A stretch of DNA of 32,343 nt, from NCBI GenBank assembly GCA_021324855.1, contig JAJPIG010000006.1, forward strand, positions 1 to 32,343. The letters are read 5' to 3'. The stretch is from Pseudomonadota bacterium (GTDB taxonomy: Bacteria; Desulfobacterota; Binatia; Binatales; Binataceae). Of this stretch, positions 25,796-32,343 are shown piece by piece. Every line of letters starts with the position of its first letter. The stretch's first letter is position 1. The position numbers and the translations under genes are program-made. The notes under the pieces were generated by a model. The model was not told where the DNA came from and searched no databases. It was given only the letters and a program-made list of their open reading frames with translations.

Positions 25796-26803
25796 TCAAT
25801 GCGGCTTGAATGCTTCGTTAACGTCCAGGTAAGGGGTCGAGTTGTTCGTTCCGCCGACTGCGAAGAGAAGGCCGTGAGCGGCGCCCACCGCGAACGAAAA
25901 GCGACTCGTCGGCATCGATGTGTCGGTGCTCCACTCATCTTCTTCAGGTTCGTACATCTCGTTCACCGAGGTCGCATTGCCACTGACGTTTCCCCCTAAG
26001 ACGTAGATATTGCCGTCAAGTTTGACGCCGCCGGCCTGAATACGAGCTGTGGGCATTGAAGCGCCGGTTGACCAGCTGTCTTCCTCAGGATCATAGACTT
26101 CGTTCACGGAGAGGGCTCCGGAGGCATTTCCTCCTCCGATGGCAAAAAGCTTACCGTGGGCCGCGACGACGACCAAATTACTCCGCCCCGTTGGCATGGA
26201 GGTCTTGGCGGACCAGGTGTTGGTGGTTGGGTCGTAGGCTTCAATCGAATTCAAATATACGCCGGGCGAGCCATTCTCTCCCCCAACAACATAGAGCACT
26301 CCATCCAATGTCGCCGCTCCTTCGCTATCAACCAGCGACGGTAGCGGCGCTTTTTCCGTCCAAGTGTTGGTGCTGGGGTCGTAAGCCTCGACCGTAGTTA
26401 CAGCGCCTCCGCATCCAGTTTGGCCGCCGATTACATAAAAGAGCCCGTTCAATTCGGCGCCGGCACCGTTCCAGCGTGCAGTGGGCATCGGCGCTACATC
26501 TGTCCAGGAGTCGGTAGCGGGATTGTAGGCTCTTACCGTGCTGATCGGCGTGCAATTGTTCGCTACCCCTCCCCCGGCAACGTAAAGGATACCGTTCACC
26601 ACGGCAGAGGCGCTCCCATTAAAGGCGATCGGAGAGGGTGCAAGCTCCTGCCACGTATCGGGCAAGTCCTGCGCGAACGCGTTGCTAAAGGTTATTGAAC
26701 CGGCAACAAACAGACAGACTGCGAATACCCATTTCCATTTGAGAGAATACGTTAAGTAATCACTACTCTTGCCTTGCATTACGACATCTATGCGCCGAAT
26801 CAT
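25796..26803 (-). CDS. Exported Kelch-repeat beta-propeller protein
   Basis: 335 residues. AGGAGG lies 9 nt before the ATG at 26803. The N-terminus has an extended charged leader followed by a hydrophobic signal (about 25-44, FAVCLFVAGSITFSNAFAQ). The mature protein is built of about six Kelch repeats of 45-50 residues, each with the pattern LYVAGG...YNPATDSWTDVAPMPTAR. A single six-bladed propeller is likely. No enzymatic residues are recognised; Kelch propellers usually bind proteins or sugars, so a periplasmic or extracellular binding role is inferred. Base composition is less GC-rich than neighbours, and the promoter region is very AT-rich, both hinting at acquisition by transfer. Confidence 0.88.
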   Translation of the reverse strand: MIRRIDVVMQGKSSDYLTYSLKWKWVFAVCLFVAGSITFSNAFAQDLPDTWQELAPSPIAFNGSASAVVNGILYVAGGGVANNCTPISTVRAYNPATDSWTDVAPMPTARWNGAGAELNGLFYVIGGQTGCGGAVTTVEAYDPSTNTWTEKAPLPSLVDSEGAATLDGVLYVVGGENGSPGVYLNSIEAYDPTTNTWSAKTSMPTGRSNLVVVAAHGKLFAIGGGNASGALSVNEVYDPEEDSWSTGASMPTARIQAGGVKLDGNIYVLGGNVSGNATSVNEMYEPEEDEWSTDTSMPTSRFSFAVGAAHGLLFAVGGTNNSTPYLDVNEAFKPH

Positions 26804-28271: not shown

Positions 28272-29114
28272 TTACCTGTGACGCCTGCAGTGTGGGTTTT
28301 GTGTTGTGTCGTTGTCGAAATTGCAGTAGCCAAAGAACCCGAACGGTCTCTCTCTGCTTGGAACGGCATTGTACTGTTGGCAAAACCGAGTCCGATAACA
28401 AGAATCTCGCCACATGTAGTCAATGCATCCCAACATGATGATGCCTTCTGGATGCAGATCGACCGGTGTTGTCGGTTTGAGCTTAAGCCCGAGTTGTTCG
28501 CGAATGTATTCAACGGTTCCTGCTTTGAGGGGCTCTGTGTAGAGGTCCGCCTGGTGAGACTGTCCCGGTAGCAACAAAGCTCCAACTCCCGCGTCGGTAG
28601 GCTTTTCCCTACACCATTGTTCAACTCTTTGTCGGCTCGAGGAGTCAAATGGGGTGATTGCCAACCCCCTAAACCAGACTTGGTTCGCTGGCGAATGCCC
28701 CGCGTTGGCGTAGCTAATCCGAACTTTCAACGACGTATCGGTTGGAGCGGCCAGCACCTCTGTGCCGGTGAGCCCAACCCAAGGGCGTTCCGAAGCTTCG
28801 TATTCCTGCTGCGTAATTTGGGCTTGATAGGCAGCAGCCGCAGCTTGTCGATTAGCGGCCTTCACGCTGCGATTCAGGCTCTTGAGCGAACAGATAGCGA
28901 CGATGGTACCCACTACGGCCACCGCTACAATCAAGTACTGACTGAGAAGATACCAGCACTGATAGTGCTGCTTGCGGCGGGGATGATTGTGTGGTGGTGG
29001 GCGATTCGATTCACTTTTGGAAACGAAGGTGTCGGACTGTTGGCCTGTTGCTACTTTGATGGCTTCTTCTTGATTCTCGCCGCCTGGGCGATCCTTATCT
29101 CCCTCATTACCCAT
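28272..29114 (-). CDS. Membrane-anchored protein of unknown function
   Basis: 280 residues with a GAGGGG ribosome site before ATG 29114. A hydrophilic, acidic-then-basic N-terminus (about 1-50) precedes one transmembrane helix at about 56-76 (LSQYLIVAVAVVGTIVAICSL). A short coil follows (SVKAANRQAAAAAYQAQITQQEYEASERPWVG), then a probable beta-rich domain (VLAAPTDTSLKVRISYANAGHSPANQVWF) with several cysteines near the C-terminus. The helix-plus-ERPWVG layout recurs in many uncharacterised bacterial proteins, but I do not recognise a named family. Codon use is less GC-rich than the core genes, so transfer is possible. A CGTCGCC/GGCGACG hairpin downstream (28208-28228) may help end transcription. 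Confidence 0.65.
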   Translation of the reverse strand: MGNEGDKDRPGGENQEEAIKVATGQQSDTFVSKSESNRPPPHNHPRRKQHYQCWYLLSQYLIVAVAVVGTIVAICSLKSLNRSVKAANRQAAAAAYQAQITQQEYEASERPWVGLTGTEVLAAPTDTSLKVRISYANAGHSPANQVWFRGLAITPFDSSSRQRVEQWCREKPTDAGVGALLLPGQSHQADLYTEPLKAGTVEYIREQLGLKLKPTTPVDLHPEGIIMLGCIDYMWRDSCYRTRFCQQYNAVPSRERPFGFFGYCNFDNDTTQNPHCRRHR

Positions 29115-29239: not shown

Positions 29240-29887
29240 CTACTTGCTGGCGTGGACCGGGGCGAGATCGACGTAGCCGGTGTCGCGCAGCAGGAACGAC
29301 TCGATCGGGATATGCAGGCTGTCGTGCACGGTGTTGTAAAACTTCCAGAAGCCGACCACGCACGCGAGTTCGATCACTTGCGGCGGCGTCAGATGGCGCT
29401 TAAGGCGTTCCAGAATTTCCTCCGGCACGCTCGTCGGATCGGCGGAGGCGGCGCGCACATAATCGAAGCAGATGCGCTCGAACTCGTTCTTCGGCACGTA
29501 AGTCCCAGCAATCAGGGACTGCAGTTCCTCTTCGCTCAGCCCCCATCCCTCTTCGCCTTCCATGCCTCGCGGCCGCTTGAGCATCGCGCACGAATGCGCG
29601 GTGCAATAGGCGCATCCGTTGATCGCGCAGGCGACCGCAGCGAGCTTGCGCTTGAGTTGCTGATCGATCGTCGATGAGGGGTCGCGCATGATGCGGCTGT
29701 TGAGCGTCCACAGGGTTTCGGCGATCTCGGGGCGATGCATGTAGAGCTTGAGCGCGTTCGGTATGAAGCCCATCCGGCGCTTGTACGGCTCGAGCACCGG
29801 CTTCAGATTTTCGGGGTAGGCCGATTCCTCGACATACGGGATGAAGGGCTCGGCCTCGATCGTCACCTTGGGCGGGGGCGTCTGCAT
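29240..29887 (-). CDS. Carboxymuconolactone decarboxylase/AhpD-like peroxidase-related protein
   Basis: 215 residues from ATG 29887, chosen because GAGGAG sits 8 nt upstream; the open frame extends five codons further to a TTG. An all-helical AhpD-like fold is indicated by the redox motif Cys92-x2-Cys95-x2-His98 (NGCAYCTAHS) and the surrounding DQQLKRKLAAVACAI and YVPKNEFERICFDYVRA blocks. Such proteins use the CxxC pair to reduce peroxides or act as thiol-disulphide partners; true carboxymuconolactone decarboxylase activity is unlikely. The N-terminal PFIPYVEESAYPENLKPVLEPYKRRMGF is typical of the peroxidase-related subgroup. It is divergent from the DUF1329 gene. Confidence 0.85.
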   Translation of the reverse strand: MQTPPPKVTIEAEPFIPYVEESAYPENLKPVLEPYKRRMGFIPNALKLYMHRPEIAETLWTLNSRIMRDPSSTIDQQLKRKLAAVACAINGCAYCTAHSCAMLKRPRGMEGEEGWGLSEEELQSLIAGTYVPKNEFERICFDYVRAASADPTSVPEEILERLKRHLTPPQVIELACVVGFWKFYNTVHDSLHIPIESFLLRDTGYVDLAPVHASK

Positions 29888-30258
29888 CGTTGGTCTCCTC
29901 AAACTTTATCGACGGCGTGCGAAAATTGCCGCGTTCGGCATGCCAAGCTTATCGGGAGCCGATACAGTCATCCGCATAGCAAAGTCATCCGATGCATACA
30001 AATCCAGGCGGGAATCAATCCGCTATCGAAGCGGCAGCGTTGAGGAGTTTCGCCGCACTGGATTTTTTTCCGACCGTTCGGTAGATATGTCGCACGTTTC
30101 GTGGCGGTTACGGGTTGTTGATTCAAAAAACGGGCTGACACCCGGGGGCAGTGCGGAAATTTGACAACCGTGCGGGCCTGATGCTAGCGCTCGCCGGGTT
30201 AAGGCATCGTAATTTTTTTTCGCATGAGGGTTATCGAATGCTCGCGGAGGAACTTCCC
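29888..30258. other. Divergent intergenic region upstream of the DUF1329 gene
   Basis: 371 nt with no gene. A consensus TTGACA (30161-30166) lies 18 nt before TAGCGC (30185-30190), a good -35 with a poor -10, about 70 nt before the DUF1329 start. A loose GCGGC...GCCGC stem (about 30031-30056) and a run of eight T (about 30211-30219) are present. Confidence 0.4.
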
Positions 30259-31605
30259 ATGCGCATTCCATTGAGACGGATGATCGGAGCGCTGTTGCTG
30301 GTTGGAGCAGTGGCGTTAAGCGGCGGACTCGCCAGTGCGGCAGGCGAGGAGGCTGCAACGATTCCGCCCGGCACCAAAATTACCCAGAAGAACTGGGAGC
30401 AGTATCAGCAGTTCATGAGCGAGGGGATGAAGGCCGTCTTCAAGGGCGATCACTTCTGGAAGTTCCCGGACAATATAGAGATCGATATCGGGCCGACGGT
30501 GCCGATTCCATTGCCCTCGTTCTTCAAGTCGGCGACCGAAGCGAACCAGAATGTGACCAAGATTGTGGCTGTCGGCGGCGGATTTGTGGCTGAGCCGTAC
30601 AAGACTGGACTGCCGTTTCCCGATCCGCTGAAGGGCGACCCGTCCCAAATCGGCCAGCGGATTTTCTGGGACCTGTGGTATCGATTTCATCCGCGCGTCG
30701 AAGAGGCGCCCAACTGTTCCTACGTGCTCGATCAGTTCGGCAATATGACGCGGACGGCCGACGAAATCATCGCCTTTTCGCAGCTCTCGCATCTGACCGA
30801 TCCGGGATTTCCGGAGAACGATCCGAATGCGGGTCCGTACTATTATGTCGCCTATGCTGAGCAAGTCGCCCCGGAAGCGGGTAAGTACACCACCACGCTG
30901 AATCTGCTGCTGCAGGATCCGCGCGCCGAGCCTGAATTGTATGAATTCGTGCCGACGCTGCGCCGCAGCTTGCGCCTGTCGCAATCGGCGCGATGCGCGC
31001 CGCTGTTCGGCACCGACCTGACCTTCGACGACAACTTCGAAGGACCTCCCGGGCTCCCCCAACTCTTCGATATCAAGTACGTGGGCGAGAAGAAGCTCAT
31101 CACGCTGGTGCATGGCGACACGCACAGCTTCGACACCTGCGGGACCGCATCGAACGTCGATTCCCGCTACTACTACATGGGTTCGAAGGGCATCGTGCCG
31201 TTCCCGAATCCCGGTTCCGGAGCCTGGGAACTGCGCGACGTTTATGTATTGTCGCTAAAGCGATTGCCGCAGAATTCGCCCGGGTACTGCTACGGCAACC
31301 GGCTGCTGTACGTCGATAAGGAGAACTTCTTCCCCGACCAGTTCGATCTCTATGACGCAGCGGGCAATCTCTACAAATGGAATGCGACCCTGCTGCGACC
31401 CTATCCCATGCCGGGCGGGAAGCCGGGCGACCAGGTCATCAGCATCTCGGGGCAGAACACGGCCTACTGCGTCAATTTCCAGGACAAGCACGTGACCGTA
31501 TTCATCGGTCTTCACGGCTGCATCAACAACGATTGCCAGGCGCAAGGCTACACAGACGCGACCCGTTGGGCTCTTCCCGAAGGGCTTTCGAAGATCATGC
31601 AGTAA
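30259..31605 (+). CDS. DUF1329 family exported protein
   Basis: 448 residues from ATG 30259 (GGAGG 8 nt upstream); earlier in-frame starts would bury the signal peptide. Signal peptide about 1-27 (MIGALLLVGAVALSGGLASA). The mature protein follows the DUF1329 plan: an N-terminal block with IPPGTKITQKNWEQYQQFM, then the diagnostic FVPTLRRSLRLSQSARCAP (240-258) and FGTDLTFDDNFEG. DUF1329 proteins are predicted LolB/LolA-like periplasmic or outer-membrane carriers of hydrophobic molecules, and often sit beside YCF48-like and RND/MMPL genes in hydrocarbon or steroid loci. Here the YCF48-like gene begins 4 nt after the stop. Cargo unknown. Confidence 0.88.
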   Translation: MRIPLRRMIGALLLVGAVALSGGLASAAGEEAATIPPGTKITQKNWEQYQQFMSEGMKAVFKGDHFWKFPDNIEIDIGPTVPIPLPSFFKSATEANQNVTKIVAVGGGFVAEPYKTGLPFPDPLKGDPSQIGQRIFWDLWYRFHPRVEEAPNCSYVLDQFGNMTRTADEIIAFSQLSHLTDPGFPENDPNAGPYYYVAYAEQVAPEAGKYTTTLNLLLQDPRAEPELYEFVPTLRRSLRLSQSARCAPLFGTDLTFDDNFEGPPGLPQLFDIKYVGEKKLITLVHGDTHSFDTCGTASNVDSRYYYMGSKGIVPFPNPGSGAWELRDVYVLSLKRLPQNSPGYCYGNRLLYVDKENFFPDQFDLYDAAGNLYKWNATLLRPYPMPGGKPGDQVISISGQNTAYCVNFQDKHVTVFIGLHGCINNDCQAQGYTDATRWALPEGLSKIMQ

Positions 31606-31609
31606 CGGG

Positions 31610-32343
31610 ATGTCTTTGGATGGAGTGTCGGTGCGTCGAAAGATTCTGAGATTTCCTGCCCGGTTATGGTCCGGCGACGCGGCAACGCGCCTGTCGTCAC
31701 GATCAGTCGCCGCTGCGATGCTCGCGTTTGCGATCGTCATCGCCGGCGCAGCGATCCTTTCGATCGGGCACGCGGCAACAACCGGAGAGGATCGCGATGA
31801 AGCCGGATGGGGTTTTGTGCGCCCCTGGGACAGTCTCTACAGCGTGACCGTTCTCCCTTCGGGCAAATGGCTGTCGGTCGGCGCGGAGGGTGTGCTTCTG
31901 ACGTCGAGTGACAGCGGCAAAAACTGGAGCCGACAGCGGCTGGCCAAACGCGGCGATCTCTCCTGGTACGATCTGTTTTCGATTCGCTTCGCGGGCGATG
32001 GAAAAACCGGCTACATCGGCGGTGAGCATGGAATCATCCTCAAGACCGACGATGGCGGTGAGACTTGGGCCGAGCAGAAGACCGGCACGCAGGAACTGAT
32101 CTTCAGGGTCGTACCGGTTGACGCGCAACACGCGGCGGCGGCGGGATCGAACGGTCTCCTGATGTGGACCGAAGACGGCGGCCAGAACTGGCATAGTCAG
32201 ACCTTCAAGAACGGCATCACGTTTTTTGATGTGGCGTTTACTGACCCGCGCAACGGATGGGCGGTTGGTGAATTCGCGACCATCGCGCACACCGCCGATG
32301 GCGGCAAAACGTGGCAGCTTCAGGCAGGCGGCGATCGCTCGAA
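31610..32343 (+). CDS. YCF48-like/BNR-repeat exported protein (3' end outside window)
   Basis: 244 codons are visible and the frame is open at the window edge. One N-terminal hydrophobic segment (about 34-54, AAAMLAFAIVIAGAAILSIG) is a signal or anchor. The rest is a propeller with four Asp-box/BNR-type repeats, each ending S/T-x-D-x-G-x-x-W: SSDSGKNW, KTDDGGETW, WTEDGGQNW and HTADGGKTW, preceded by GYIGGEHGIIL and GWAVGEFATI blades. This is the YCF48/HCF136-like fold. In loci with DUF1329 it is thought to assist an RND-type transporter. ATG 31610 has no ribosome site but is 4 nt from the DUF1329 stop; GTG 31631 has GGAG 5 nt upstream and is an equal candidate start. Confidence 0.85.
   Translation, partial: MSLDGVSVRRKILRFPARLWSGDAATRLSSRSVAAAMLAFAIVIAGAAILSIGHAATTGEDRDEAGWGFVRPWDSLYSVTVLPSGKWLSVGAEGVLLTSSDSGKNWSRQRLAKRGDLSWYDLFSIRFAGDGKTGYIGGEHGIILKTDDGGETWAEQKTGTQELIFRVVPVDAQHAAAAGSNGLLMWTEDGGQNWHSQTFKNGITFFDVAFTDPRNGWAVGEFATIAHTADGGKTWQLQAGGDRS

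Follow-up and report, generated by a model that had tools for sequence, protein, structure and literature searches.

A predicted Ame-type transporter gene set that runs straight into amine dehydrogenase genes

The locus at and beyond the window end

What do two closely spaced genes at the very end of the window belong to, and what might their products carry? The window, the whole 32,343-nucleotide stretch analyzed here, opens a contig (C31) of 168,795 bases and fills its positions 1 to 32343; the draft genome has 3.75 Mb in 38 contigs. Its last two genes encode a DUF1329 protein and a YCF48-like protein; DUF1329, like the DUF1302 family met below, is by its Pfam name a family of unknown function. 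The initial annotation placed the pair at the front of a transport locus with the remainder past 32343, and proposed looking for an MMPL/RND gene and a DUF1302 gene within the next 5–6 kb. Extension of the contig recovered both within that distance, completing a four-gene DUF1329-YCF48-RND-DUF1302 set that supports the transport reading. In window numbering, the locus comprises:

29240–29902, minus strand: AhpD/CMD-superfamily-like gene, divergent, the upstream border of the cassette
30259–31605, plus strand: DUF1329 protein, AmeB-like, 448 aa (PF07044 96.7 bits, cut-off 23.1)
31610–32722, plus strand: YCF48/BNR-repeat protein, AmeC-like, 370 aa, interrupted by the window end at 32343 (PSII_BNR 108.5 bits for the full protein, cut-off 27)
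32698–35118, plus strand: MMPL/RND protein (PF03176 63.2 bits)
35147–36955, plus strand: DUF1302 protein (PF06980 26.6 bits, cut-off 23.2)
37007–38218, plus strand: amine dehydrogenase heavy chain, mauB (PF06433 181 bits)
38259–38801, plus strand: MauE (PF07291 102.7 bits)
38776–39444, plus strand: MauD (TIGR02661 242 bits, cut-off 188.6)
39401–40024, plus strand: cytochrome c
40025–40807, start uncertain, minus strand: second cytochrome c, convergent
40552–41079, minus strand: amine dehydrogenase light chain, convergent (PF02975 168 bits)

The reported 4-nt spacing of the first pair is borne out (31605 to 31610), and profile matches agree with both family names. The DUF1329 frame starts at the ATG of position 30259 and has a hydrophobic, signal-peptide-like N-terminus, with an upstream GTG at 30151 as a possible alternative start. 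Pfam's LolA_like family also matches the protein (37.2 bits, cut-off 30). Its predicted structure, folded alone, has a mean pLDDT of 34, too low to be informative, and a sequence search of solved structures returned no DUF1329 relative (one match, E 0.18). The divergent AhpD-like neighbor described earlier is real and lies on the minus strand, with scores under both curated cut-offs (Pfam CMD 22.2 of 23; TIGR01926 53.7 of 81.8). Further upstream, 28272–29114 on the minus strand holds a 280-aa open reading frame of doubtful status as a gene, which matches neither Pfam nor NCBIfam at E 0.001, and 25796–26803 encodes a 335-aa Kelch-repeat protein with a signal-like N-terminus.

From 30259 to 40024, eight plus-strand genes follow one another with spacings of at most 51 nt or with overlaps, and the DUF1302 gene is separated from the heavy chain gene on the same strand by just those 51 nt. 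This layout is an apparent operon that links a four-part transporter of the Ame type with the oxidation of amines in the periplasm. The reference system is AmeABCD, a monoterpene exporter of Castellaniella defragrans with an RND protein of the HAE3 lineage, whose deletion lowered monoterpene tolerance and increased dye accumulation in de-energised cells (PMC6394551). It unites a DUF1302 outer-membrane protein, a DUF1329 protein of the LolA superfamily, a YCF48-like protein (COG4447) and an RND pump, clustered with the catabolic genes that it serves (PMC6394551); the likeness to our locus is one of family content. All four families are adjacent and on one strand here. The two systems differ in gene order (A-B-C-D there, B-C-D-A here) and in partners, which are monoterpene genes there and amine dehydrogenase genes here. 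The RND protein shows, by simple hydropathy only, two large loops after TM1 and TM7, in gaps of ~180 and ~200 residues (39–219 and 431–628). Judged by gene content and this topology, the four-gene set is a predicted Ame-type transporter.

What is new is the Ame-type set running straight into amine dehydrogenase genes. A search of the literature, mostly without subscription papers, found no paper joining "amine dehydrogenase" with DUF1329, DUF1302 or YCF48. It had been suggested that DUF1329-YCF48 pairs commonly precede RND/MMPL genes in hydrocarbon or steroid loci; the RND gene is indeed present, but the neighbors are those of amine oxidation. Nor does a general rule of DUF1329 genes preceding RND genes hold for most such genes in this genome: among the 24 over the cut-off in its 3.75 Mb (e.g., L009–L032), just one, that of the window, has as its neighbor any of the four RND genes of Ame type found there.

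A predicted TTQ amine dehydrogenase

The TTQ-type amine dehydrogenase gene set (MADH/AADH family) behind the cassette includes the heavy and light chain families, MauE and MauD. The light chain is rich in cysteine (14 Cys), and tryptophans in its TAWVGTC and TVWCFG motifs align with the Trp residues of solved light chains that we take to be the TTQ-forming pair. Methylamine-specific chain models stay below cut-off (TIGR02659 196.0 of 196.85; TIGR02658 192 of 454). Against solved structures, the heavy chain scores 216 bits with aromatic amine dehydrogenase and 165 with methylamine dehydrogenase; the mature part of the light chain scores 141 and 133 bits, respectively, and the top light-chain score, 179.5 bits, belongs to the longer methylamine chain 3c75 in a match that takes in the leader. 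The closer match to aromatic amine dehydrogenase weakens the reading that the mau genes serve methylamine oxidation and nothing else. The G437 heavy chain, introduced below, has the same preference (191 aromatic versus 142). The L122 heavy chain shares it too (156 versus 122), although this member of the class has no cassette, so the preference does not set the window enzyme apart. Genes mauAB have been reported in Binatota (PMC8262859).

A close known system for the enzyme is the aralkylamine dehydrogenase aauBEDA. The likeness lies in the heavy chain, for which structures of aromatic amine dehydrogenase are the best match, and in the B-E-D-A genes plus two cytochromes c, as in the annotated aau genes on the Pseudomonas aeruginosa RW109 plasmid. 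It differs from the present locus in two respects: in the window genome (G000) the light chain and one of the cytochromes c are turned around, and both G000 and G437 carry an Ame-type cassette ahead of the enzyme genes. The Indioceanicola cluster additionally carries MauF, MauJ and a cytochrome c peroxidase. The inversion relative to the heavy chain (40025–41079) is found in the window genome and in its congener G427, unlike the other loci fetched. Another rearranged form occurs at L110 and L160 (G429 and G428), where MauE and MauD lie on the strand opposite to the heavy and light chains.

A small RND clade and the spread of the linkage

Relatives of the RND protein (E up to 1e-60) occur in 118 of the 148 class genomes, with four in the window genome; at most six candidates per genome were scored, so further members of the clade described here may be missed. 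In a tree of 32 rows chosen by similarity, with G503_C40 left out, the proteins of the window genome, G437 and G432 form one clade with support of 100/100, present in 100% of 200 bootstrap trees. An earlier choice of rows gave the clade 100/99 and set G419_C33, G421_C169 and G503_C40 apart as a far long-branch group, two of them short, taken as wrong frames. The clade spans three genera—that of the window genome, a second genus of the same family (G437) and that of G432, whose RND protein is the closest to the window's by identity (70%)—and one of its three members lies on an 8.9-kb contig.

In all three members found, the RND gene is followed by a DUF1302 gene and then by an amine dehydrogenase gene: mauB in the window genome and G437, qhpA in G432. 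There, 48 nt separate the cassette from the gene for the quinohemoprotein alpha subunit (TIGR03908 623 bits, cut-off 274), behind which comes the first part of the QHNDH radical-SAM maturase, interrupted by the contig end (TIGR03906 264 of 453 bits); a search of the G432 genome gave no light-chain match. The quinohemoprotein (qhp/pea) system thus resembles our locus in that, in this closest relative, the cassette precedes qhpA and the start of the maturase gene, and is unlike the TTQ enzyme in its unrelated subunit families and maturation. The chance of one given pair lying within 200 bp in the same direction is roughly 3e-5 to 1e-4, a figure that ignores the choice of pair and shared ancestry.

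Congeners show the same sites without the cassette. In G427, of the window's genus, the AhpD-like gene directly adjoins mauB, and the aligned flanks leave 193 bases versus ~7.2 kb in the window contig; in G436, of G437's genus, a TmcC-like gene (a label resting on 65 of 240 bits) and mauB are ~0.8 kb apart versus ~7.7 kb in G437. Each of the two genera thus has one species that carries the cassette and another that lacks it at this site, between flanks that are conserved, and no cassette remnants stood above noise in G427 and G436 among the matches listed. The pattern could stem from a single ancestral linkage followed by two losses, or from two gains. The enzyme can do without the cassette, since the congeners retain the enzyme genes alone.

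The linkage is narrow. Light-chain genes occur in 54 of the 148 class genomes and in five of a phylum-wide sample of 395, each of these five belonging to the class. Sequence around every one of the 59 light-chain places over the cut-off was taken (a sixtieth, under it, was left out), and most show the usual order heavy chain-MauE-MauD-light chain-cytochrome c. A full cassette stands directly before the heavy chain in two of the 59, the window genome and G437, where at least eight stretches reach less than 4 kb upstream of the light chain, too short to tell, and where searching with the proteins of the window at E 1e-5 targeted window-like cassettes and would miss distant ones. Of the other loci, that of G428 includes an RND gene past the mau genes at a distance of ~4.7 kb, and L152 (G472) a weak DUF1329 match (25%). 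As a separate observation, L101:7377-10502 and L102:6044-9162 pair a DUF1329 protein ~50% identical to the window's with a DUF1302 protein, with no RND or YCF48 match in the fetched stretch.

Quinohemoprotein loci offer more distant instances. The alpha subunit has matches in 23 of the 148 class genomes (14 over the cut-off), and 20 stretches of one other family were fetched. Behind qhpA-qhpD, on the same strand, lie DUF1329-DUF1302 genes in G404, G407, G408 and G409, their four main DUF1302 genes also being Pfam matches, and DUF1329-RND genes in G405. The downstream pairs are tandem in L254 and L255 (G408 and G409): a second pair precedes the first, with a DUF1329 gene that is weak in G408 (E 9e-5) and, lacking a match in G409, is named there by position and resemblance. 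Weak DUF1329 matches follow qhpA on the opposite strand in G402. The fetched stretches of G395, G397, G400 and G401 hold none; the remaining ones are interrupted by contig ends. Elsewhere in the phylum, none of eight quinohemoprotein loci (seven over the cut-off, one just under) gave a cassette match.

Among plasmids, RND matches were found in 46 records, three of which were examined for their setting. Two of these, Aromatoleum aromaticum EbN1 plasmid 2 and the Methylibium petroleiphilum PM1 plasmid, hold all four families side by side; in the third, a YCF48 gene neighbors genes for phenol hydroxylase where the record ends. Unlike our locus, EbN1 and PM1 show a permuted gene order, RND proteins ~28% identical to the window's (distant long-branch rows in the tree), and other neighbors—acyl-CoA-type genes in EbN1, IS elements and further DUF1329/DUF1302 genes in PM1. 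Of 29 heavy-chain and 27 qhpA plasmid records, ten (seven and three) were examined, three of them unannotated and judged by translated search alone. One of the ten loci carries the full set, that of Cupriavidus pinatubonensis HN-2, a record picked because it also had an RND match, so that one in ten is not a fair rate; and since translated search missed the annotated DUF1302 gene of HN-2, the plasmid negatives are not strict. By annotation, HN-2 plasmid p1 has DUF1329, DUF1302, MMPL and YCF48 genes in one region with a TTQ operon (large subunit, MauE, MauD, light chain, two cytochromes c and an aldehyde dehydrogenase). It differs from the window locus in that the cassette lies 5.2 kb before the operon, with five genes between (four on the opposite strand plus a LysR regulator), and in an RND protein 24% identical to the window's. 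Two annotated plasmid pea clusters, when examined, had no such cassette.

For comparison, the surroundings of eight other RND genes in the family, three of them from the window genome, gave no Mau or Qhp match; the G428 stretch begins past the mau genes, 4.7 kb from the RND gene, and the G430 RND gene is ~22 kb from that genome's light-chain gene on the same contig. Several of the control RND genes have YCF48, DUF1329 or DUF1302 neighbors (G427 and G437), which makes a cassette in itself nothing unusual for the family. Within the window genome, 13 further stretches with 17 DUF1329 matches showed no RND, DUF1302 or YCF48 match, and the DUF1329 gene at C14:3024-4007 has RND-superfamily genes 6–10 kb away with much longer frames (1281 and 1089 aa).

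What the transporter may handle

That the set runs straight into genes for an amine-oxidizing enzyme suggests that the transporter handles the amine or its product. With moderate confidence, we favor an Ame-type transporter specialized for the amine or the aldehyde made from it. The RND protein would use the proton gradient to extract a lipophilic molecule, either from the inner membrane or from the periplasm; the LolA-like DUF1329 protein and the YCF48-like protein may carry or hand over the molecule in the periplasm; and the DUF1302 barrel would provide its passage across the outer membrane. The cargo may be an amine, aralkyl or otherwise amphiphilic, or the aldehyde formed by the adjacent amine dehydrogenase. 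The likeliest task would be export, keeping a toxic substrate or product low in membrane and periplasm while the enzyme works. Gene content, order, spacing, linkage, clade and presence/absence are observed directly; cargo, outward direction and assembly of the four parts we infer from them.

Several lines of evidence argue for this amine-specialized reading. The eight plus-strand genes are tightly spaced; all three clade members found precede amine dehydrogenases of two unrelated types, the transporter being kept; each of two genera has the cassette in one species and an otherwise conserved site without it in another; distant instances recur, as modules at qhp loci in five genomes of another family and on the HN-2 plasmid; the eight stretches around other RND genes are free of Mau and Qhp matches, with the two reservations given above; and deletion of ameABCD reduces tolerance of monoterpenes (PMC6394551). 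Counting against it are the narrowness of the linkage, at two of 59 light-chain loci, none of eight quinohemoprotein loci elsewhere in the phylum and one of ten plasmid loci, the congeners whose enzyme genes stand without a cassette, and the small size of the clade, with three found members. We regard as evenly balanced the further proposal that an amine-dedicated Ame-type branch stayed with amine oxidation while one oxidizing enzyme gave way to an unrelated one, TTQ type for quinohemoprotein type; the branch would then carry lipophilic amines or aldehydes in partnership with periplasmic quinone enzymes.

The same link with amines could operate in the opposite direction, with DUF1302 as the entry channel for a lipophilic amine and DUF1329, YCF48 and RND proteins clearing or recycling it. 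The enzyme is periplasmic by leader type and family, which would leave the outer membrane as the sole barrier to cross, and the DUF1329-DUF1302 genes behind qhp genes in G404, G407, G408 and G409, with no RND match in the fetched stretch, fit uptake or a carrier better than RND efflux. However, the characterized relative AmeABCD behaves as an exporter (PMC6394551), and a proton-driven RND pump would presumably be needless for uptake, which we therefore consider unlikely.

Slightly more doubtful is a purely incidental arrangement, in which an Ame-type module with some other hydrophobic cargo was inserted before an amine dehydrogenase in a few genomes. The clean presence and absence in both genera, the many amine dehydrogenase loci examined that have no cassette, and the abundance of Ame-type RND relatives across the class would all accord with it. 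Against this stand the direct placement of every clade member found before amine dehydrogenases of two unrelated types, the small chance estimated per given pair (with its neglect of pair choice and shared ancestry), and the distant recurrences at qhp loci and on HN-2. An envelope-lipid transporter like HpnN, unrelated to catabolism, is very improbable: HAE3-type RND proteins include hopanoid transporters (PMC6394551), and the DUF1329 protein matches LolA_like, but presence that varies among species of one genus is a misfit with a housekeeping lipid route, and three RND paralogs in the same genome sit amid oxidative enzyme genes.

Amine dehydrogenase genes give the DUF1329 and DUF1302 families a second setting, chemically different from monoterpene export, the one characterized setting found for them. 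With the cassette lying beside two unrelated amine dehydrogenases, the cargo hypothesis becomes specific enough to try out in bacteria that grow in culture, for instance Cupriavidus pinatubonensis. A further suggestion is that TTQ enzymes of this kind in uncultured lineages, where they are read as "methylamine" enzymes, should be looked at again.

The paralogs in the window genome have settings of their own. On C35, a YCF48-RND pair lies amid Rieske, dioxygenase-superfamily, aldehyde dehydrogenase and PLP-decarboxylase genes; on C9, an RND gene is surrounded by molybdenum hydroxylase and Rieske genes; and on C28, one stands beside a GMC oxidoreductase gene. These settings fit a transporter family in which each member is placed with a catabolic locus. 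Two decarboxylases may be recorded separately: the C35 pair (L195, G000:C35:73000-92000) is near a PLP-dependent decarboxylase (PF00282) and oxidative aromatic-type genes, and a decarboxylase of the PF00282 family, possibly an amine-forming step, follows the mau cluster of G437 (L098:17178-18638).
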